DNA of 25,317 nt, taken from the IMG/VR virus record IMGVR_UViG_3300025767_000116, positions 1 to 25,317 of that record; one strand, given 5' to 3'. The position numbers were made by a program, and so were the translations under genes. Below are positions 9,527 to 25,317 of this stretch, one piece after another. The stretch's first letter is position 1. Each line of letters opens with the position of its first letter. Under the pieces are notes generated by a model. The model did no database searches, was not told the DNA's origin, and was given only the letters and a program-made list of their open reading frames with translations. The DNA comes from a virus.

Positions 9527-10699
9527 TTAATTGTTAAATTTTTTTGTTTTAATTCTAAGTTTTGAAGAATCGTAACCACTAATAGCTTTGACTTTTAATC
9601 CATTTACATAAACATCACCAGCAGCTGCTTGTCTTGTTTCAGCACTAGGATTTTTTGAATTAGTAACAACTTCTTTTACCGCGTCAGCTTTACCTTGCTC
9701 GTAAAAGTGAGATGCTATTTTGTCAATGTTATCAGCAGCATACATAGCCTTGTGATAACCTCTCGCATCTACAACTTCACCTTTATCATTTAAGAACTTC
9801 TTAATTAGGTTATTGATGTTTGATTGGTTCTCAGCTACTTTTTCAACATTTTGAATACCGTACCTAAATTTCTTTTCTCCTACATTGATGTCAAAACCTT
9901 TGAAATCATCAGAAAAAAGCCTTTTAGTTTCAGCTTTAAATTTCTCGTGTTGCTCAGCAGCTATGCTTTGCTCTTCGTTGTATCGGTTGAAAAAGTCAAG
10001 TGCTTTCTTTTGCTCTTGGGTAACACCAGGTCTCAACTTGATTTCCTCGTAATATTTACCTTTAAGATCTTCAAGATAGTTCTTAGCTTTTGCAACTTCT
10101 TCTTTATAAGCGAGTTTTCTTTTTCTTACATCTCGCTCTTCATCAAGTTCCTCATCATAGCTAAAGTTATCTTCCATAAGGAATTGTATTTCTTCAGCGT
10201 CTAAATGTGGTCTTGTTTTTTTATAGTATTCTTTAAGTAATGCAGTGTTGTCTACATTTGTGTAATCAGCATTTAATCTAACGTAGTCTTCAACTGTTCC
10301 ACCAGTTTCCTCCATAAAAGAAACTAATTTTTCAATGTTTTCAGGTAGTTGTTTACCTGTTTCTTGACTTTGTTGAACAGCTTGTTCTACTTGTTCTGTT
10401 AAATCTTTAACTTCTTCTTCTTCGTCTGTTATTTCTTGAATAACTACTGGCTCATCTTCAATAACCTCTGTGGCAGCGACTGCGGGTTTTTCGTCTTGTT
10501 CAACCACTTCTTGCAGTTCCACTTCGGGTTGTTCTGCGCGTAACACGCTTTCATCTGCAACTTGCTCTTGAACGGCATCCTCTTCTTTTTTAGGTGTTAG
10601 ATCAACTTTAATGACATCTTTATTGCCACTTAGTTTTTTCATTGCGGGTTTTTTCTTTTGTAATTTAAAATCCCCTTCTTGTTTTACTGTTTCTGACAT
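9527..10699 (-). CDS. Scaffolding-like protein (390 aa), acidic and coiled-coil
   Basis: The 390-aa protein is highly charged. Residues 35-130 are strongly acidic and low complexity (for example DEEEEVKDLTEQVEQAVQQS), residues 170-260 are helical and coiled-coil-like (RKRKLAYKEEVAKAKNYLED), and the C-terminus is basic (SKLRIKTKKFNN). A charged helical protein encoded between portal and major capsid genes is the classic place and character of an internal scaffold. The basic tail could bind the capsid inner surface. The capsid gene starts 11 bases before this gene's stop on the map (just upstream), so the two are co-expressed. No protease motif is seen, so whether it is processed is unknown. 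The function is inferred from context and composition. Confidence 0.62.
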   Translation of the reverse strand: MSETVKQEGDFKLQKKKPAMKKLSGNKDVIKVDLTPKKEEDAVQEQVADESVLRAEQPEVELQEVVEQDEKPAVAATEVIEDEPVVIQEITDEEEEVKDLTEQVEQAVQQSQETGKQLPENIEKLVSFMEETGGTVEDYVRLNADYTNVDNTALLKEYYKKTRPHLDAEEIQFLMEDNFSYDEELDEERDVRKRKLAYKEEVAKAKNYLEDLKGKYYEEIKLRPGVTQEQKKALDFFNRYNEEQSIAAEQHEKFKAETKRLFSDDFKGFDINVGEKKFRYGIQNVEKVAENQSNINNLIKKFLNDKGEVVDARGYHKAMYAADNIDKIASHFYEQGKADAVKEVVTNSKNPSAETRQAAAGDVYVNGLKVKAISGYDSSKLRIKTKKFNN

Positions 10700-15365: not shown

Positions 15366-15637
15366 TACTTAGATCTACCTTCAGCGAAACCTCTGAAATT
15401 TTTTTGTGGTGAATCAGCAGATTCATCATTTAACAATTGTTCTTCTTGTTCAATACGTGAAAGTATTTCAAAAGCATCAAATATTGCTAATTTCTTTGTA
15501 GCAGCAGCATTTTTTAATCTATCAGCTGATATGTCATCATCTGAGTCAACTATTTTTTCTCTAGCTACTTTTATTAATTCCTCAACTGCTTTTTGCCCAG
15601 CTAGGATTATATTCTTCTTCGTTTCCTTGGTATTCAT
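15365..15637 (-). CDS. Small helical protein before terL, candidate terminase small subunit (90 aa)
   Basis: The 90-aa protein is predicted mostly helical: NIILAGQKAVEELIKVAREK is an amphipathic helix, then DDDISADRLKNAAATKKLAI and FDAFEILSRIEQEEQLLNDE. It contains no internal Met, so the start at 15637 is the only ATG. This forces a 56-base overlap with the end of the upstream GroES-like gene, whose tail is well formed in its own frame. The stop overlaps the terminase start by one base. A short helical protein immediately upstream of terL is where a small terminase subunit usually sits, and its acidic and basic helices are compatible with that. No sequence-specific DNA-binding motif is obvious, so the role is inferred from position. 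Confidence 0.55.
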   Translation of the reverse strand: MNTKETKKNIILAGQKAVEELIKVAREKIVDSDDDISADRLKNAAATKKLAIFDAFEILSRIEQEEQLLNDESADSPQKNFRGFAEGRSK

Positions 15638-16187
15638 ATTTAATTACAATATCATTAGATTTCATACAGTATAATCTTTCCTCATCAACTACAAATTCAA
15701 ATTCGCCGCCAGGAGTATAACCCACAAGGTCCCCAGGATTGATTTCTAGCGCTTGTAAGGAACTATTACCGTATTTAAGTATACCAATAAGCTTTTGCTC
15801 TTTTTCAAGAGAGAAGCTGTCTTTATTTTTAATTGGAATAATAAAACATCTATCATTAAATGTCTTCCATTTTTTAGGTTTTCCATATAAATATATTTGA
15901 TCTGGTGCAACAAAATATAATCCATCAATAAACATTGATCTACTATCTTTTTGATTCCCTTTCATATCATAAAACCTCCTAAATACGTTGTGGTGAATAA
16001 CCACAATATCTCCAACGCTAATACCCGTGTCATAAGCTAAAGGAGTTGCTACTACTTCAGCATAATTACTTACAGATTTATAGCTCTCTATTGACGAGTT
16101 TGTAACAAGTGTTTTATCGCCAACTTTCTTTTCGTTGTCATAGCGCTTGCCGACTGGCTTCACAATGAAGTCGTAAATACTTCTCAT
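15582..16187 (-). CDS. Two-lobed GroES/Cpn10-like phage protein (201 aa)
   Basis: The 201-aa protein seems to contain two similar beta lobes. Lobe 1 (about residues 3-101) opens IYDFIVKPVGKRY and has GDIVVIHHNVFRR (59-71) near its middle. Lobe 2 (about 112-185) opens RCFIIPIK and has GDLVGYTPGGEFEF (152-165), then LYCMKSNDIVIKY. The pattern of a short 'F-I-x-P' strand, a loop and a 'GD-[IL]-V' turn is that of Cpn10/GroES-like folds, and I recall marine phage proteins of this length annotated as chaperonin Cpn10. It ends QGNEEEYNPSWAKSS. It sits directly before the putative small terminase and terL, far from groEL. It may be a virion-assembly co-chaperone or a structural beta-barrel. The fold assignment is moderately supported. 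Confidence 0.55.
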   Translation of the reverse strand: MRSIYDFIVKPVGKRYDNEKKVGDKTLVTNSSIESYKSVSNYAEVVATPLAYDTGISVGDIVVIHHNVFRRFYDMKGNQKDSRSMFIDGLYFVAPDQIYLYGKPKKWKTFNDRCFIIPIKNKDSFSLEKEQKLIGILKYGNSSLQALEINPGDLVGYTPGGEFEFVVDEERLYCMKSNDIVIKYEYQGNEEEYNPSWAKSS

Positions 16188-16685: not shown

Positions 16686-17138
16686 TTATTTATTTTCTTT
16701 TATTGCTGATCCAAAATAGTATCCAAATATTGATAAAGCAACACCTTCTACTATTCCGATCAAATGTATGAAAATTTCTTTATTTGATTCTGGCACTTGT
16801 GTGGTAACTACAGTATAAACTAAAAAAGCAAAAGCAGTTAATCCAACTATGCCAGTAAGATTAAACATCCAGTCTGTTCCGTATTTTCTTAAATTTACTT
16901 CTCTTTTCCTAGCAGAGTCTCTATCTTCTACTTCTAACCTATAAAGTTCTACCAATCTATCGTGTGCTTCAGCTTTTTGATCGTCACTTAGATTTGGGTC
17001 TTTATCTATTAACTTTTTAACTACTCCTAAAAGACCTTTATCTGGAAGCACATCACCTACAACGTCTATTATAGTAGAACCAGCTCCTAGTAGAAACTTA
17101 CCTAATCCTGTTTCTTTAAAAGGTTTTTTATCTTTCAT
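16686..17138 (-). CDS. Two-TM membrane protein, holin-like (150 aa)
   Basis: The 150-aa protein has an amphipathic N-terminus (residues 10-45), a charged linker (SDDQKAEAHDRLVELYRLEV, then EDRDSARKREVNLRKYG) and two hydrophobic segments at about 90-112 (WMFNLTGIVGLTAFAFLVYT) and 121-145 (IFIHLIGIVEGVALSIFGYY). The charged linker before the membrane helices, and the overall size, resemble the phage/GTA 3-TM holin type. It begins one base into the stop of the upstream MPFKMK gene. A holin or membrane anchor for lysis is plausible. The 50-aa membrane protein next to the peptidase (19533-19685) is a competing holin candidate, and the two could act together. Confidence 0.6.
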   Translation of the reverse strand: MKDKKPFKETGLGKFLLGAGSTIIDVVGDVLPDKGLLGVVKKLIDKDPNLSDDQKAEAHDRLVELYRLEVEDRDSARKREVNLRKYGTDWMFNLTGIVGLTAFAFLVYTVVTTQVPESNKEIFIHLIGIVEGVALSIFGYYFGSAIKENK

Positions 17139-17476
17139 TATTTGTATTTAAATTGGGCTTTAATATCAGGATTTTCTTTTTGAATTTGCTTTGAGTAATT
17201 ATCAAATTGCTGCGGCGTAATTCCTCCAGCGGCATTGTACGTTGGAATAGCACCACCTTCTTGCAACCTATTAGTACTTCTTTTAACATATTTAGAAAAC
17301 TTACCAAGATTAACTCCTGTTGGTGTAGATATTTTTTCACCATGCATCTCATTAATAGTGTTAGCTAAATTCTCTGTTTGAGATTCAGTTAATTTACCTT
17401 TACTTTTTTTAGTGTTATCACCAGGTCCTTCGTTTATTTTACTCAAAGGACTTGAGTATTTCATTTTAAACGGCAT
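17138..17476 (-). CDS. Small protein with MPFKMK N-terminus (112 aa)
   Basis: The 112-aa protein begins MPFKMKYSSPLSKINEGPGD and is rich in Lys, Asn, Thr and Ser. It is probably mostly disordered up to residue 45, with helical stretches after. Its first six residues match the 216-aa gene at 18159, and the DNA around both starts is nearly identical over 22 bases (see the repeat entries). A Gln-rich segment with GGITPQQFDNYSKQIQKENP lies near the C-terminus. No domain is recognised. The shared start peptide suggests a common targeting or packaging role for these small proteins, but that is inference. Confidence 0.62.
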   Translation of the reverse strand: MPFKMKYSSPLSKINEGPGDNTKKSKGKLTESQTENLANTINEMHGEKISTPTGVNLGKFSKYVKRSTNRLQEGGAIPTYNAAGGITPQQFDNYSKQIQKENPDIKAQFKYK

Positions 17477-17480
17477 AGTT
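17459..17480 (-). repeat. 22-bp start-region repeat, copy 1 (MPFKMK gene at 17476)
   Basis: Positions 17459-17480 match 18792-18813 at 21 of 22 bases. The repeat covers AACT before the start codon and the codons for MPFKMK of the 112-aa gene. The only difference is a synonymous change in codon 2 (CCG here, CCA in copy 2). Confidence 0.7.
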
Positions 17481-17799
17481 ATTTAGTTTTAGATTTGTTA
17501 TAAGCTTCTTTTTCCCAAGGAAGGTTTTTAGCTCCTTCTTCCATTTGTGCCCTTGAATATTTTTTACCTTTCCAAAAAACAGCGCTATCATTATAATCAA
17601 GATCACCTCGTTTCATTTGATCGATGTGAACTTTTTCGTGATTAATTACATCTTGCTTTTGTTTTTCGTCAGTAATATTTTTATTTATAAGTATACTACC
17701 ATTTCTATCGGCTTTACCTAACACTTCATCACCTAAGTCTACGTTATATATAGGTGTATTGTCGATGTAATATGGTGGATTACTTAGTTTGAACGCCAT
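17479..17799 (-). CDS. Small HExxH zinc-metallopeptidase-like protein (106 aa)
   Basis: The 106-aa protein contains HEKVH at residues 54-58, a zincin HExxH motif (ligands H54 and H58, catalytic E55). Downstream is WEKEAY (95-100), whose E98 (or E96) could be the third metal ligand, as in gluzincin-type families. The N-terminus MAFKLSNPPYYIDNTPIYNV shows a variant of the MPFKMK start seen in neighbours, followed by a beta segment (GSILINKNIT). It overlaps the 55-aa gene upstream by 20 bases. A small zincin in a phage virion or lysis cassette might process a structural protein or cell envelope. The motif is clear; substrate and activity are unknown, and a catalytically dead domain is possible. 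Confidence 0.62.
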   Translation of the reverse strand: MAFKLSNPPYYIDNTPIYNVDLGDEVLGKADRNGSILINKNITDEKQKQDVINHEKVHIDQMKRGDLDYNDSAVFWKGKKYSRAQMEEGAKNLPWEKEAYNKSKTK

Positions 17800-17947
17800 T
17801 ATATGGGAACATGTTGTTTAAAGCTTCTTTTCTTTTTTGGCAACCACAAGGGATATTAAGACCCTCTGATACTTTATCAACAACAGATTTAATACCAGTT
17901 GCTGTAGTTATCTTTTCTATAGTGTCACCTAGTCCCTTGGATTCCAT
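17780..17947 (-). CDS. 55-aa protein with CGC motif
   Basis: A short open frame begins at ATG 17947-17945, overlapping the stop of the upstream 69-aa gene by one base (TAATG), and ends with TAA at 17782-17780, overlapping the next start by 20 bases. The product begins MESKGLGDTIEKITTATGIK and later has NIPCGCQKRKEALNNMFPYN. The CGC (C34, C36) followed by a KRKEALN helix and FPYN is a pattern I recall in small proteins of marine Bacteroidetes phages and prophages. It is predicted as an N-terminal helix, the CGC turn and a second helix. The coupling at both ends and intact frame support a real gene. Function is unknown; the Cys pair could bind metal or redox-pair. Confidence 0.7.
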   Translation of the reverse strand: MESKGLGDTIEKITTATGIKSVVDKVSEGLNIPCGCQKRKEALNNMFPYNGVQTK

Positions 17948-18156
17948 TACTTAGAACAGTGCTTACTCATCCAAGATCCAGTCATCTTCATAGGAGAACA
18001 ACTCATTTTAGCAGGTGATCCATACATAGACATTGGACTATCATCTTTCATTCCTGCTTGAGCATTTTTAGCATAGTTTTTTCTAGCTGATGCATTAAGT
18101 GATTGGTTGCTTGCTTCTTTAACGTCGTAAGCTGTTTTTTTACTAATGTTTGGCAT
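17947..18156 (-). CDS. Small Met/Ser/Lys-rich protein (69 aa)
   Basis: The 69-aa basic protein has repeated SPxxM-like units: MSMYGSPAKMSCSPMKMTGS. Residues 1-40 (MPNISKKTAYDVKEASNQSL onward) are polar and helical; the C-terminus carries two Cys and ends SKHCSK. The SPxKM units recall the start peptide MPFKMKGSP of the neighbouring 216-aa gene. It is unlike any enzyme I know. Its stop overlaps the start of the 55-aa gene by one base. The function is unknown. Confidence 0.6.
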   Translation of the reverse strand: MPNISKKTAYDVKEASNQSLNASARKNYAKNAQAGMKDDSPMSMYGSPAKMSCSPMKMTGSWMSKHCSK

Positions 18157-18158
18157 AA

Positions 18159-18809
18159 TTATTTCTTTTTTGAGATTCTTTTTTCTATTCTTGTCGCTCT
18201 TTTATTTAACCTGTTGTGTTTAGCTCTTGCAGCTTTACCTTCCATTTGACCTCTAGAACCAGCGTTGTAATCAGATTTTACTTTAGCTGCTTTGTTTTTA
18301 GTTTTAGCCAATCTCACTTCTTTTCTACTCTTTGAAACTTCAGTTGATTTAGTAGACTTAGCTTCTTCAGTTTTGGTTGTTTGTTTTCCTGAATTTAAAA
18401 ATTTAGCAGCTTTTACTCCTGCTTCTGACGTTGTTTTTGCATTAGATGTTTTATTTGCGTTTGAAGTAAACGAACGAGTTGTCAGTGGTTCTGAGGATAC
18501 AGGTGTTTTTTTATTTGTTTTTTTAGGTGAAGTTTTTTTATTTTCAGTAACCTTCTTTTGTCTAGGAGCTGAGGAAGGAGTTGTTGTTTTTGCTTTTGGT
18601 TTTGTTTCAACAGGTGTCGTGTCAGCTATTGTAGGTATAGTAAAACCTCTTGGAGTCGTAGGACCTTGAACAGTACCAATTGTGTTTGTTCTAGCAGAAC
18701 TTGGTGGATCTTGGTATGTAATTCTTTTCGTTACTCCTTCTACTTTTACAGTTCCTGTTGTTTTATCTCCAAGTGCGTTTAATGGAGAACCTTTCATTTT
18801 AAATGGCAT
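18159..18809 (-). CDS. Basic Lys/Thr/Ser-rich low-complexity protein (216 aa)
   Basis: The 216-aa protein begins MPFKMKGSPLNALGDKTTGT, with a short beta-like start (TVKVEGVTKRITYQDP), then a long Lys/Thr/Ser/Pro-rich disordered region (residues about 75-150, for example NKKTSPKKTNKKTPVSSE), ending in a very basic tail (RLNKRATRIEKRISKKK). The start is repeated in the 112-aa gene at 17476. A highly basic disordered protein could bind DNA or RNA, or be an internal virion protein. No folded domain is recognised. The composition is typical of some phage internal or DNA-associated proteins, but that is weak evidence. Confidence 0.6.
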   Translation of the reverse strand: MPFKMKGSPLNALGDKTTGTVKVEGVTKRITYQDPPSSARTNTIGTVQGPTTPRGFTIPTIADTTPVETKPKAKTTTPSSAPRQKKVTENKKTSPKKTNKKTPVSSEPLTTRSFTSNANKTSNAKTTSEAGVKAAKFLNSGKQTTKTEEAKSTKSTEVSKSRKEVRLAKTKNKAAKVKSDYNAGSRGQMEGKAARAKHNRLNKRATRIEKRISKKK

Positions 18810-18833: not shown

Positions 18834-19076
18834 TTAGCATTTCCACTTACGTCTTGCAATGTCGTTTGGACAATCACCGTTTTTATCTGGATTTTTACAT
18901 TTTTTAATACCAGCTGATCTAGCGCAGTATGATTTTTTTCTACTACCACCTTCTGGTTGAGGTGCCTGTAAGTTTCCACCAGTTTCCCTGTTGTACTTTC
19001 TTCTCTCAGCAGCAGACATACCTGCTTCGTATGGTTTAGTCCTTAAAAAAGGAGATTTACTTTGTACGTATGCCAT
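18834..19076 (-). CDS. Small basic four-cysteine protein (80 aa), marine phage type
   Basis: The 80-aa protein has a charged N-terminus, then GNLQAPQPEGGSRKKSYCAR and a C-terminal half with cysteines at 51, 60, 69 and 80: CAR..., KKC, DCPND and WKC as the last residue. This evenly spaced set could bind a single zinc. The 'KSxCAR ... ALRKWxC' pattern is known to me from small hypothetical proteins of marine phages, annotated only as a DUF-type family. It is highly basic and sits directly after the M15 peptidase gene, with which it shares one base at its start. No function is assigned. Confidence 0.65.
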   Translation of the reverse strand: MAYVQSKSPFLRTKPYEAGMSAAERRKYNRETGGNLQAPQPEGGSRKKSYCARSAGIKKCKNPDKNGDCPNDIARRKWKC

Positions 19077-19531
19077 TATATTAGTTTGTATTTTGATTTG
19101 CCATTTAATTTGTAAGCCTTCATAATTCTTCTTCTATTTTCATCAGAAGAAACATAACTAACATGCACCCAGTCAGGATTATTATCGTTTCCAAATTCCC
19201 AAATTAATTGATCGAAATCTAAGTTATCTTTTATATAATTAAACATTTCAGCATTTGTCTTATGACCAAATGTATCATCTAAGTCAATAGCTCTACCTTC
19301 ACAATGTTGTGATCTAGAACTTCCGCCAATAACTGAGTTTAATTCTTTGCACCTATAAAAAGAATTAATCTTTATAGGTCCTCCAACCCACTCTCTAAGT
19401 GGTTCAAAAACAAGTTCAGCAATTATCTGCATGTTAACCAAGTGATATGGCTCAGGTGTATTGTCTATATCAAGTCTTAAAGCAGTTCTTGAATAAACAC
19501 CTTCTTTATCAGATATATGCTTGCTAATCAT
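19076..19531 (-). CDS. M15-family zinc peptidase, endolysin candidate (151 aa)
   Basis: The 151-aa protein carries the M15 peptidase pattern: SQHCEGRAIDLD at residues 74-85 gives ligands H76 and D83, E112 (QLIWEFG) is the likely catalytic base, and H123 (WVHVSY) is the third ligand. The N-terminal part includes NTPEPYHLVNMQIIAELVFE and a Ser/Tyr/Arg segment (INSFYRCKELN) typical of D-Ala-D-Ala carboxypeptidase/L-Ala-D-Glu-type phage endolysins. Such enzymes cut peptide cross-links of peptidoglycan. No signal peptide is present, so export would depend on a holin. It lies directly downstream of a 50-residue membrane protein (2-base gap), making a classic holin-endolysin pair. The enzyme class is secure; exact bond specificity is not. 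Confidence 0.85.
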   Translation of the reverse strand: MISKHISDKEGVYSRTALRLDIDNTPEPYHLVNMQIIAELVFEPLREWVGGPIKINSFYRCKELNSVIGGSSRSQHCEGRAIDLDDTFGHKTNAEMFNYIKDNLDFDQLIWEFGNDNNPDWVHVSYVSSDENRRRIMKAYKLNGKSKYKLI

Positions 19532-22806: not shown

Positions 22807-22938
22807 TTAAGCAGTATATGTTCCGCTAGATGTATAAGTTAGTATTGTGTCAGAACCATCTGTTGTAACCGTAGGGCTTCCTGTCGTAGTTCCTGAATAG
22901 TTTGCTGTTGGCATACGAAGAATAACTACTCCAGAGCC
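22807..22938 (-). repeat. Paralogous C-terminal repeat, copy in the 365-aa fibre
   Basis: The last 43 codons plus stop encode a C-terminal block nearly identical (41 of 43 residues) to that of the other fibre at 24303-24434, but with many synonymous differences (7 of the last 14 codons). It is a protein-level repeat. Confidence 0.8.
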
Positions 22939-23904
22939 TCCGTTTCCACTTGTACCAACAGAGCCAGATAAAAGACCTGCAGAACTTCCGCCACTACCTC
23001 CACCGGTATTTGCCGTACCAGATTGTCCATCTTCAAAGCCACTAACAGAATAACCTCCATTACCACCGCCGCCAATTCCACCACTACCAAATTGATTATT
23101 TCCTGCTCCAGACTCTGGGCCACCAGCGCCTCCACCGCCTGCATAATAGACAGAAGAGCCAGTTATACTAACTAAAAGACCACTTCCGCCATCTCCAGGC
23201 CCATTAGAAGAATTACCTTGTTGTCCAACACTTGAAGCACCACCGCCTCCTCCATTTACCTCAGAATAACCGCCTAAATTTGTACCATTTCCACCAGCAT
23301 AACCTTGACCAGACGTTCCAGTTCCAGGTGTTGAAGTAGTCCAACAACCACCTCCAGAACCTCCGCTGCTTCCATCAAGGTATTGAGAACCTCCAGGAGT
23401 ATTTCCAGTAGCTCCACCGCCACCTCCTATTGAAGTAATTGTAGTTATGTCTAATCCAGATAAAAAACTATCAGAACCATTTCTTGAAACCGCTGTAGTT
23501 GCGGGTACATTATTTCCAGATGCCCCAGCTCCAATACTTATTGTATAAACATTAGATGGATTAAATGTTATATTATTTTCAGAAACAGAACCACCTCCAG
23601 ACGTAGAACCGTAAGATGTTCTTAATCCGCCTGCTCCACCACCTGCACCATAAGTTATACCTCCTGCACCGCCGCCAGCAACTACTAAGTAATCTACCGC
23701 ATAAGGTGGGGGCGGAAGCGTATCCAAAGTTAGCCACTCTGTGCCATCGTATGTTTCCATAACATTGTCAGTGGTGTTAAATCTAATATACCCAGCTTCT
23801 GGCGATACAGGACGTTCTGCCGTAGTTCCTTTAGGGAATACAGTTGCACCTGTAGACGAATTTAAATCTAATAAATCTGGGTGGTTTATTTTTGTAGTCG
23901 CCAT
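22807..23904 (-). CDS. Glycine-rich tail fibre/adhesin (365 aa)
   Basis: The 365-aa protein has an N-terminal segment (residues 1-60: MATTKINHPDLLDLNSSTGA, then GTTAERPVSPEAGYIRFNTT) typical of virion-attachment starts in phage fibres, a PPPP linker, then DYLVVAGGGAGG and about 230 residues rich in Gly-Gly clusters with Asn, Ser and aromatic residues, and a conserved C-terminus (VVILRMPTANYSGTTTGSPT). The VxYLVVAGGG opening is known from glycine-rich phage fibre domains, some forming polyglycine-II-like folds. A paralog lies at 24303. Together they would form host-recognition fibres or be alternative receptor-binding proteins. The virion/adhesin role is well supported; its receptor is not. 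Confidence 0.75.
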   Translation of the reverse strand: MATTKINHPDLLDLNSSTGATVFPKGTTAERPVSPEAGYIRFNTTDNVMETYDGTEWLTLDTLPPPPYAVDYLVVAGGGAGGITYGAGGGAGGLRTSYGSTSGGGSVSENNITFNPSNVYTISIGAGASGNNVPATTAVSRNGSDSFLSGLDITTITSIGGGGGATGNTPGGSQYLDGSSGGSGGGCWTTSTPGTGTSGQGYAGGNGTNLGGYSEVNGGGGGASSVGQQGNSSNGPGDGGSGLLVSITGSSVYYAGGGGAGGPESGAGNNQFGSGGIGGGGNGGYSVSGFEDGQSGTANTGGGSGGSSAGLLSGSVGTSGNGGSGVVILRMPTANYSGTTTGSPTVTTDGSDTILTYTSSGTYTA

Positions 23905-24302: not shown

Positions 24303-24434
24303 TTATGCGGTGTATGTTCCGCTAGATGTATATGTTAAAATTGTATCTGTTCCGTCTGTTGTAACTGTCGGCGAGCCTGTGGTTGTTCCACTGTAGTTAG
24401 CCGTTGGCATTCTAAGTATTACTATACCAGAGCC
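24303..24434 (-). repeat. Paralogous C-terminal repeat, copy in the partial fibre
   Basis: Second copy of the 43-codon C-terminal block shared with 22807-22938. Residue changes are V to I and S to T only. Confidence 0.8.
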
Positions 24435-25317
24435 TCCCTGTCCTCCTGATCCACCACCTCCACCTGTGTTTGTAGTACCAGCTGTGCCAGCTTGATTCAT
24501 AGGATTATTATTATTACCGGTACCACCGCCTCCAAGCCCAGGGGAGCCAGGAATTGGGGACCCAGAAATACCTCCCCATTTATCTGCACTTCCACCCCCA
24601 GCATAATAAACAGGAGTGCCTGTTATTGAAACCTGCAAACCGTTTCCGCCATCACCACCGCTATTTGTACCCCCATTTACTCCAACTGCAGCCGCACCTC
24701 CCCCACCACCTCCAATATAATTTGGAGAAGTTGCTGCAATACCTCCTGCGTATCCTTGCCCTGTAGTACCAGCTCCGCCGTTAGGACCAACGTACCAAGA
24801 CCCGCCTCCGGATCCGCCATCCGCTCCAGTGTTACCCGGAGCACTGTCATTATTTCCTCCAGAACCACCACCAATAGATTCTATTGTTGAAAAAGATGAA
24901 TTGGCACCATTAGTTCCTCTGTTAGGTGTATTAGCATTGTTCCAAGTGCCGGTAGTGTTTCCGCCTGCTCCAACCGTTATAACATACTGTGTGCTTTGTG
25001 TTGTAATCAATGTATCTTCCGATGTGGCTCCCCCTCCAGAAGTTGACCCGTATGAAGTGCGCAACCCTCCAGCCCCACCAGCTGCTCCTCTTGAACCTCC
25101 ACTTCCCGCTCCTCCTCCAGCAACCACTAAATAGTCTACTGAATAAGTAGGTTTAAGATTATTAATCTTCCTCCAATCAGTACCATCAAAGGTTTCTAAT
25201 TTAGTTTCGTCTATTTCAGAGTTATGTCTTAGTGTTCCTTCTACTGGGTTAGATGGTCTTTGTGCTGTTGTTCCAACTGGCAAACCTAAAGCATCAGTAT
25301 CTGAACCTAAGTCTAGT
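24303..25317 (-). CDS. Glycine-rich tail fibre/adhesin paralog, 5' end cut by window edge
   Basis: The frame is open to the right edge. A TTG at 25283 is an artefactual start, because the codons before it (LDLGSDTDALGLPVGTTAQR) align with the 365-aa paralog (LDLNSSTGATVFPKGTTAER) at the same spacing. About 11 residues including the ATG lie outside the window. The body shows DYLVVAGGGAGSGG, long Gly clusters with Asn and Ser, and the conserved C-terminus (IVILRMPTANYSGTTTG). It looks like a second, slightly more divergent adhesin of the same module as the gene at 22807. The role is host-binding fibre by family inference. Confidence 0.75.
   Translation of the reverse strand, partial: LDLGSDTDALGLPVGTTAQRPSNPVEGTLRHNSEIDETKLETFDGTDWRKINNLKPTYSVDYLVVAGGGAGSGGSRGAAGGAGGLRTSYGSTSGGGATSEDTLITTQSTQYVITVGAGGNTTGTWNNANTPNRGTNGANSSFSTIESIGGGSGGNNDSAPGNTGADGGSGGGSWYVGPNGGAGTTGQGYAGGIAATSPNYIGGGGGGAAAVGVNGGTNSGGDGGNGLQVSITGTPVYYAGGGSADKWGGISGSPIPGSPGLGGGGTGNNNNPMNQAGTAGTTNTGGGGGSGGQGGSGIVILRMPTANYSGTTTGSPTVTTDGTDTILTYTSSGTYTA

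Follow-up and report, generated by a model that had tools for sequence, protein, structure and literature searches.

A small HExxH protein gene widespread in uncultured viruses of bacteria: an N-terminus resembling that of a probable scaffold protein hints at carriage into the virus head

The window, the whole stretch of DNA analysed here, is a virus record of 25,317 bases. On its minus strand (as for every feature located below), running from 17799 to 17479, lies the gene of a 106-aa protein with HEKVH at residues 54-58 (codons at 17626-17640) and W95-E96-K97-E98-A99-Y100 near its C-terminus; read in the frame shown, the plus strand across 17479-17799 is interrupted by stops. The preliminary description of this DNA had the ORF and the exact place of HEKVH right, and to these only the strand need be added. 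Upstream is a 55-aa gene (17780-17947; a GLGDTI...CGC protein matching phrog_32048, of unknown function, at E 1.5e-5), the 3' end of which shares 20 bases with the start of the HExxH gene, and two bases separate the HExxH gene from the next gene downstream, that of a 112-aa low-complexity protein beginning MPFKMKYSSPL (17138-17476), so that the HExxH gene looks operonic. Proteins similar to the 55-aa one (GLGDTI...CGCQKRKEALN) are also found in sister lineages without the protease (L083 and L174).

In the window the 112-aa gene is followed by that of a 150-aa protein (16686-17138), presumably holin-like, with weak PHROG matches of unknown function. On the other side lie the genes of a 69-aa protein (17947-18156) with repeated SPMxM and GSPAKM-like motifs toward its C-terminus (SPAKM repeats occur in L162 too), of a 216-aa low-complexity protein beginning MPFKMKGSPL (18159-18809; no PHROG match at E <= 1 and no Pfam match at E <= 0.1), of a small DUF6321 protein (18834-19076; PF19846, 4.7e-11), and of an M15 peptidase, the endolysin (19076-19531; PF08291, 2.9e-13; phrog_894 endolysin, 5.4e-26), an enzyme distinct from the HExxH protein. 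Elsewhere the window encodes GroES and GroEL (recognised by eye in the translations), a terminase, a portal and a virion structural protein that is presumably the major capsid protein. Between the portal and capsid genes, a position that points to a scaffold role, is the gene of a 390-aa protein without a PHROG match (9527-10699), whose N-terminus, EGDFKLQKKKPAMKKL, includes FKLQ at residues 11-14 (codons at 10658-10669).

The HExxH gene has a wide distribution among uncultured bacterial viruses, judging by sequence matches: 505 relatives were confirmed in one scan of IMG/VR, the best 80 of them being fetched, and later scans, with the HExxH family or a neighbouring gene as bait, supplied more. 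Each of H54, E55, H58, E88, W95, E96 and E98 is present in all of 105 distinct proteins; with distant and fused forms included, H54, E55, H58, W95, E96 and A99 are kept in 180 of 180, E88 in 179 and W76 in 169. Close homologues without H54, E55 or H58, named at the outset as the telling observation, were looked for, and neither set contains one. (The motif seemed to be missing from 6 of 179 ORFs; this was an artefact of calling starts at ATG only, the 43-aa fragments having another start codon and being extended upstream.) E98, put forward as the third zinc ligand in the preliminary description and also at first in this analysis, from an EREAN pattern, is glutamate in only 168 of the 180, distant members having N (5), R (2), K (2), D (2) or G (1). 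Because E96 is constant while E98 varies, the third ligand is most likely E96 (codon at 17512-17514).

The invariant residues are written with synonymous codons (among 177 genes, H54 is CAC in 94 and CAT in 83, E55 GAA in 123 and GAG in 54, H58 CAT in 151 and CAC in 26, E96 GAA in 166 and GAG in 11), and the median pairwise dN/dS is 0.21 (3,544 pairs, 177 distinct genes; 5-95% range 0.08-0.37). This value indicates purifying selection and, together with the invariance of the catalytic residues, argues that the gene is not a relic. Its product is very probably a real zincin protease, zinc binding and proteolysis being predicted, and would be a small zincin of the glutamate type, with H54, H58 and E96 as ligands and E55 as the putative catalytic base. 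As was proposed from the start, a zincin-type metallopeptidase would thus stand beside, and separate from, the M15 enzyme.

Structure prediction is in keeping with this assignment. Two AlphaFold models, built on 51 and 38 aligned sequences, have mean pLDDT of 82.2 and 84.1, the first ten residues being the least confident part of both (block means 61 and 59). In each, HEKVH lies on a helix (residues 45-64), three short strands follow, and PWEKEAY is on a helix at 94-104; the features that define Glu-zincins are found here as HExxH in 180 of 180 relatives and, on the predicted following helix, the invariant E96 in its presumed role as ligand. VIA-align ranks IrrE (3dte) first for both models, at Z 6.4 (84 residues, 3.8 Å) and 7.0 (82 residues, 3.7 Å), even the best of which falls in the range that the tool calls common. 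The next rows are PprI (8sln; Z 6.2 and 6.5) and 6mdw/6mdx ('protease dependent DPC repair'; 5.0 and 5.5), which we take to be SPRTN. Lower in the first list are BepA, abylysin and CapP, at Z 4.5, and selecase 4qhf, at 4.2; in the second, ArdC (5.1), abylysin (4.9) and 4qhf (4.8). The upper rows are presumably all HExxH proteins, and the aligned range of 3dte, which ends at 123 against 106 in the window's protein, would pair Glu113 of IrrE with E96, provided that the last helix aligns without a gap; for these reasons the modest Z values carry more weight. The zinc ligands of IrrE are His82, His86 and Glu113 (PMC5552922). Foldseek against the PDB found no solved structure at E <= 0.001 (its best values, 0.55 and 0.14, were both to PprI, and PprI/IrrE chains span 0.14-0.84 over both models); a comparison with predicted viral proteins gave 11 matches at E <= 0.001, of which three bear the name SprT-like and one, at 8e-11, is an 'uncultured virus' protein of 301 aa. 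The modelled fold can be described as mini-Glu-zincin-like, with IrrE and PprI heading the solved structures at modest scores.

Sequence searches add hints of the same kind. For the window's HExxH protein Pfam yields no family above cut-off (best E 0.064), a search of PDB sequences reaches 0.093 at best (its Exotoxin A rows being weak and at chance level), and a profile search of PDB sequences gives just two unrelated rows, at E 0.44. When 51 members are compared with Pfam all matches are weak, and metallopeptidases are four of the six commonest (DUF6782 in 26, M91 in 12, M76 in 11, M78 in 8); non-peptidase rows also recur weakly (DUF6487 in 20, Tet_res_leader in 9). PF06114 (M78; cut-off 22 bits) is not listed for the window's protein and has no match across the whole record at E <= 0.001 (0/1); the 8 of 51 members that match it at E <= 0.1 do so at 0.004 at best, E 0.08 corresponding to 13.2 bits. 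The cut-off of SprT-like PF10263 (25.6 bits) is not reached by the one member of 51 that matches it (E 0.024), nor by a Melnitz phage homologue, at 22.4 bits. Among PHROGs, the metallo-protease family phrog_87 matches 6 of 38 members and the window's protein only at E 0.066; phrog_16532 and phrog_10499, both of unknown function, align with residues 50-102, from HExxH to PWExEA (E 1e-9 and 1.2e-8), and hence with the C-terminal half only.

The preliminary description had called the protein much smaller than usual zincins, which is true of classical zincins and not of solved mini-zincins (4jiu, 105 aa; 4jix, 104 and 112 aa; 4qhf, 109 aa); PMC3890501 supplies solved-structure precedents for zincins about 105 aa long. 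The protein resembles these minigluzincins (abylysin, jannalysin, selecase) in its length, about 104-112 aa in that group, in being a single domain, and in its Glu-zincin layout; it differs from them in being phage-borne, in bearing an N-terminal tag in common with other proteins, and in lacking sequence matches to such PDB chains. IrrE/PprI and the ImmA/IrrE (M78) proteins, the best structural match, likewise place an HExxH helix before a helix with the glutamate; M78 matches, however, are weak among family members, and the window's protein is only 106 aa long, without the further domains that IrrE, as we understand it, possesses.

An unexpected feature is the N-terminus. The protease's first ten residues, MAFKLSNPPY (codons at 17770-17799), fit a motif F-K-[LIM]-x that the 216-aa and 112-aa neighbours also begin with, and F3 is kept in all 178 relatives that have a letter at that position, 2 being gapped. 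Of the window's 47 ATG ORFs of at least 50 aa, only the protease, the two low-complexity neighbours and the scaffold-like protein, four in all, have FK[LIVM] within the first 25 residues. Near the protease in the fetched loci, 81 ORFs (48 distinct) that are otherwise different start M[AP]FK[MLI] or similar, and once the first 12 residues are removed they fall into 16 body clusters. DUF6321 homologues in related loci are tagged as well (MAFKLPNGPL..., a 91-aa form, and MAFNLPNGPL...), and the three tested, from L033, L056 and L059, match PF19846 at 7e-11 to 8e-11. The zincin, DUF6321 and the low-complexity proteins thus make at least three unrelated kinds of tagged body.

When the genes of 160 loci are grouped into 151 clusters and each cluster is represented once, 13 of them have FK[LIVM][KRQNSP] within the first 25 residues, compared with 1 of 997 other 25-residue windows and a shuffle expectation of 1.4 (maximum 7 in 2,000), chance figures that are optimistic, the patterns having been drawn up after the sequences were viewed, and per-cluster counts that are approximate, single-linkage clustering having produced one cluster of 240 members. 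Several of the tagged clusters may be remote homologues of one another whose bodies change quickly. SP[LFMIYA], enriched in the first 30 residues (37 of 151 clusters, 30 of 791 other windows), belongs to this pattern in a looser form and stands outside the main claim. Tagged proteins are basic (median charge +0.146 per residue; 41 distinct, at least 50 aa) relative to others (0.00; 2,608 distinct, at least 100 aa); for the HExxH proteins the figure is neutral, 0.00 (160 distinct). The first 18 bases of the 216-aa and 112-aa genes are identical at 17, and those of the protease gene match them at 11 and 12; the tag may have arisen by the copying of DNA, for example between the 216-aa and 112-aa genes. 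A free-standing protease gene is directly followed by a tagged gene in only 24 of 157 distinct cases, by one with an SP-type N-terminus in 15 and by a holin-like one in 12; the rest are 'other' (87) or have none within 250 bases (19). The strings MPFKMK, MAFKMK, MAFKLN and MPFKMKGSP were not found in a search of the text of the literature.

The same element is seen in the probable scaffold protein, the N-terminus of which in protease-bearing loci reads roughly MSE..KQEG[DE]FK[LI]K. Of 21 distinct homologues from HExxH loci, 18 have FK[LIVM][KQRT] within their first 25 residues (mean shuffle chance 0.018); so do 12 of the 44 from loci without a found protease, a group that includes 8 of window type whose fetched loci may stop short of the protease gene. 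The two groups overlap, there being 63 distinct scaffold-like proteins altogether. A looser form of the motif is present in 20 of the 21 and in all 44. Elsewhere in these proteins the strict form occurs in 3 of 882 windows. In sister lineages the usual start of the scaffold-like protein resembles MEIKVR or MEFKVR, and in elemo it is MFKMKLEG. The motif is short, it sits at about residue 10-16 instead of at residue 3, and homologues count as one event. With these limits on its reading, the resemblance between the N-termini of the protease, the probable scaffold and the small proteins nearby hints that the protease travels into the head. Alternatively, the FKL segment may have a structural role or act as an inhibitory pro-segment.

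In 11 loci the protease domain forms the N-terminal part of a long protein (10 distinct, 375-671 aa), and in all 11 a homologue of the window's 150-aa gene comes directly after it (25-31% identity, E 1.4e-10 to 2e-16, blastp). Part of the body of the fused protein in L326 matches, at 50% over 44 aa, free-standing tagged genes in L306 (E 9e-8) and L126 (E 3e-7), which directly follow the protease there; the other ten fused bodies match no free-standing tagged gene. Protease and tagged neighbour therefore appear to exist both split and joined, with one clear example. Together with the common N-terminal motif, these fusions to long bodies lend indirect support to the virion protease of the preliminary description. 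A different arrangement is seen on a contig of a flavobacterial MAG (L164), in which the N-terminus of the protease is extended, ending ...SPLKMGFKMKGSPY, and the gene after it (L164:1115-2698) encodes a 527-aa protein with a second HExxH (HELLH) and, later, GELYAN, and no Pfam match at E <= 1.

The window's terminase matches 87 phage records, 68 of Flavobacterium and 15 of Cellulophaga phages, so the host is probably a flavobacterium-like bacterium. None of 50,697 phage records contains a match to as much as 80% of the HExxH protein's length; the nearest homologue in a cultured phage is an Ochrobactrum phage protein annotated as ImmA/IrrE family (38.6% identity over 77% of the query, E 9e-6). 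The protease is absent from 28 of 28 Manatee-like loci and from the 41-kb stretches examined of Panino, elemo and the Manatee record; a homologous scaffold-like protein is present in these three and in many of the Manatee-like loci. Since relatives with homologous head genes dispense with the protease, it is best regarded as an accessory gene and not a core head function. Its co-occurrence with the tag was assessed with a bait independent of the protease, the gene of a 201-aa protein (15582-16187). None of the 28 Manatee-like loci (at least 7 kb upstream) has protease or tag; among the 28 window-type loci (with 5 kb or more upstream) the protease is present in 27, and 5 of these 27 carry the strict tag. 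Under a common 5-kb limit, the 61 usable loci of L167-L319 divide into 37 with neither, 5 with both and 19 with the protease only, an association that is confounded by phylogeny and so does not amount to strong support. The 201-aa protein is itself conserved beside the terminase; its elemo homologue is annotated as the co-chaperonin GroES, though the same record has a separate annotated GroES.

Three known systems bear on what such a protein might do. In T4 different proteins are loaded by means of a short N-terminal address, the core that receives them also containing a protease, and the internal proteins are called basic (PMC9026906). The likeness to the T4 capsid targeting sequence is that of a short N-terminal motif on different proteins plus a protease, drawn here from genes only; the T4 protease, gp21, is a serine protease, whereas the HExxH protein is a predicted zinc protease. 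Polyvalent proteins of phages and plasmids often hold zincin domains that are thought to process packaged or injected proteins, P1 DdrB and N4 RNA polymerase being suggested cases (PMC5512222). Here too an HExxH+E domain is phage-borne and can be fused to long proteins, and ArdC is a structural match (Z 5.1); in the polyvalent proteins the metallopeptidase is a domain of a larger protein, whereas here it is mostly separate and small, the fused form being confined to 11 loci. Crassvirus virions store several cargo proteins (PMC10172136).

As a whole, these observations are best explained by an accessory protease that is steered into the procapsid along with cargo, a reading to which we assign a probability of roughly 0.45. 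The protease would probably be made late in infection. The F-K-[LIM] tag, as on the scaffold-like and low-complexity proteins, would most likely bring these and the protease into the procapsid, where, or after ejection into the next host, the protease would most likely cut the co-packaged tagged proteins; in the fused forms it may cut its own attached body. A free mini-Glu-zincin with a scaffold-like address, adjoining or fused to addressed cargo, would combine the logic of T4, the polyvalent proteins and the crassviruses. Taken by itself, carriage of the HExxH protein into the head has about an even chance of being correct; that it acts on co-packaged cargo, its putative substrate, and not on host proteins can be suggested only tentatively. 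A further generalisation, which is somewhat unlikely, is that these relatives of flavobacterial phages have a head-targeting code of their own beside that of T4, with the scaffold's F-K-[LIM]-K copied onto the protease and onto rapidly changing basic cargo, all loaded together and the cargo then trimmed or released.

The chief rival reading is an intracellular protease directed at the host or its defences, which in the manner of IrrE/ImmA would cut a host regulator or defence protein, the tag being structural or autoinhibitory and any packaging incidental. The ranking of folds (IrrE/PprI, then 6mdw/6mdx and ArdC), the ImmA/IrrE annotation of the nearest cultured-phage homologue and an accessory distribution that omits sister lineages all speak for it. 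Such a role sits poorly with a gene located in the lysis/packaging block and tightly spaced with a tagged gene, with an N-terminal motif that recurs in the scaffold-like protein, and with the long bodies of the fused forms, and it is judged unlikely. That the protein is instead the prohead maturation protease, entering by its tag and, like T4 gp21, stripping scaffold and tags before DNA packaging, would account for the FK[LIM] common to it and the scaffold-like protein, and the terminase, portal, scaffold-like and capsid proteins include none that is recognisable as a protease. It is nevertheless a quite improbable proposal, inasmuch as the gene is absent from the Manatee-like loci (0 of 28) and from the Panino and elemo stretches, though many of these loci and both phages have the homologous scaffold-like protein, the gene does not adjoin the head genes, and the capsid protein has no propeptide that is obvious by eye. 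The envelope-acting peptidase of the preliminary description, here an envelope or peptidoglycan peptidase that would aid the M15 enzyme in lysis, has the nearby endolysin gene in its favour and is very improbable: no signal peptide or other export signal is seen by eye, the tag is common to the scaffold-like protein and neighbours, no peptidoglycan peptidase family figures among the Pfam and PHROG matches, and in the structural rankings BepA of the periplasm (Z 4.5) and BlaR1 of the membrane (Z 3.8-4.2) come below IrrE/PprI and 6mdw/6mdx. An inactive relic or chance ORF, which the window protein's want of a Pfam family above cut-off might suggest, is scarcely credible in the face of 505 relatives in one scan, invariant catalytic residues and purifying selection, unless the fold has been reused as a binding module with its ligands kept.

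If the procapsid reading is correct, a simple peptide address loads proteins into heads and the protease travels with the cargo, in a group of phages that is common among uncultured viral contigs. Such an address would mark packaged proteins among the many small phage genes of no assigned role; it would constitute a second case, beside T4, of address-plus-protease logic, and would offer biochemistry a small zinc protease. An invariant Glu-zincin-like family of 106 aa, whose member in the window has no above-cut-off Pfam match, is a useful annotation regardless. The family was not found in titles and the opening parts of abstracts on phage cargo and metalloproteases, elemo and virion proteomics, or Cellulophaga structural proteins.

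Two minor observations concern contigs and genes away from the protease. Contigs assigned to MAGs of Aliivibrio, Woesearchaeota and Alphaproteobacteria (L160, L163 and L165) contain the same phage gene block; they are probably phage contigs that were mis-binned. In the window, 22807-23904 and 24303-25283 encode two similar Gly-rich proteins with C-terminal ends that are near-identical by eye; they are perhaps related to tail fibres, and the second nearly reaches the end of the window.
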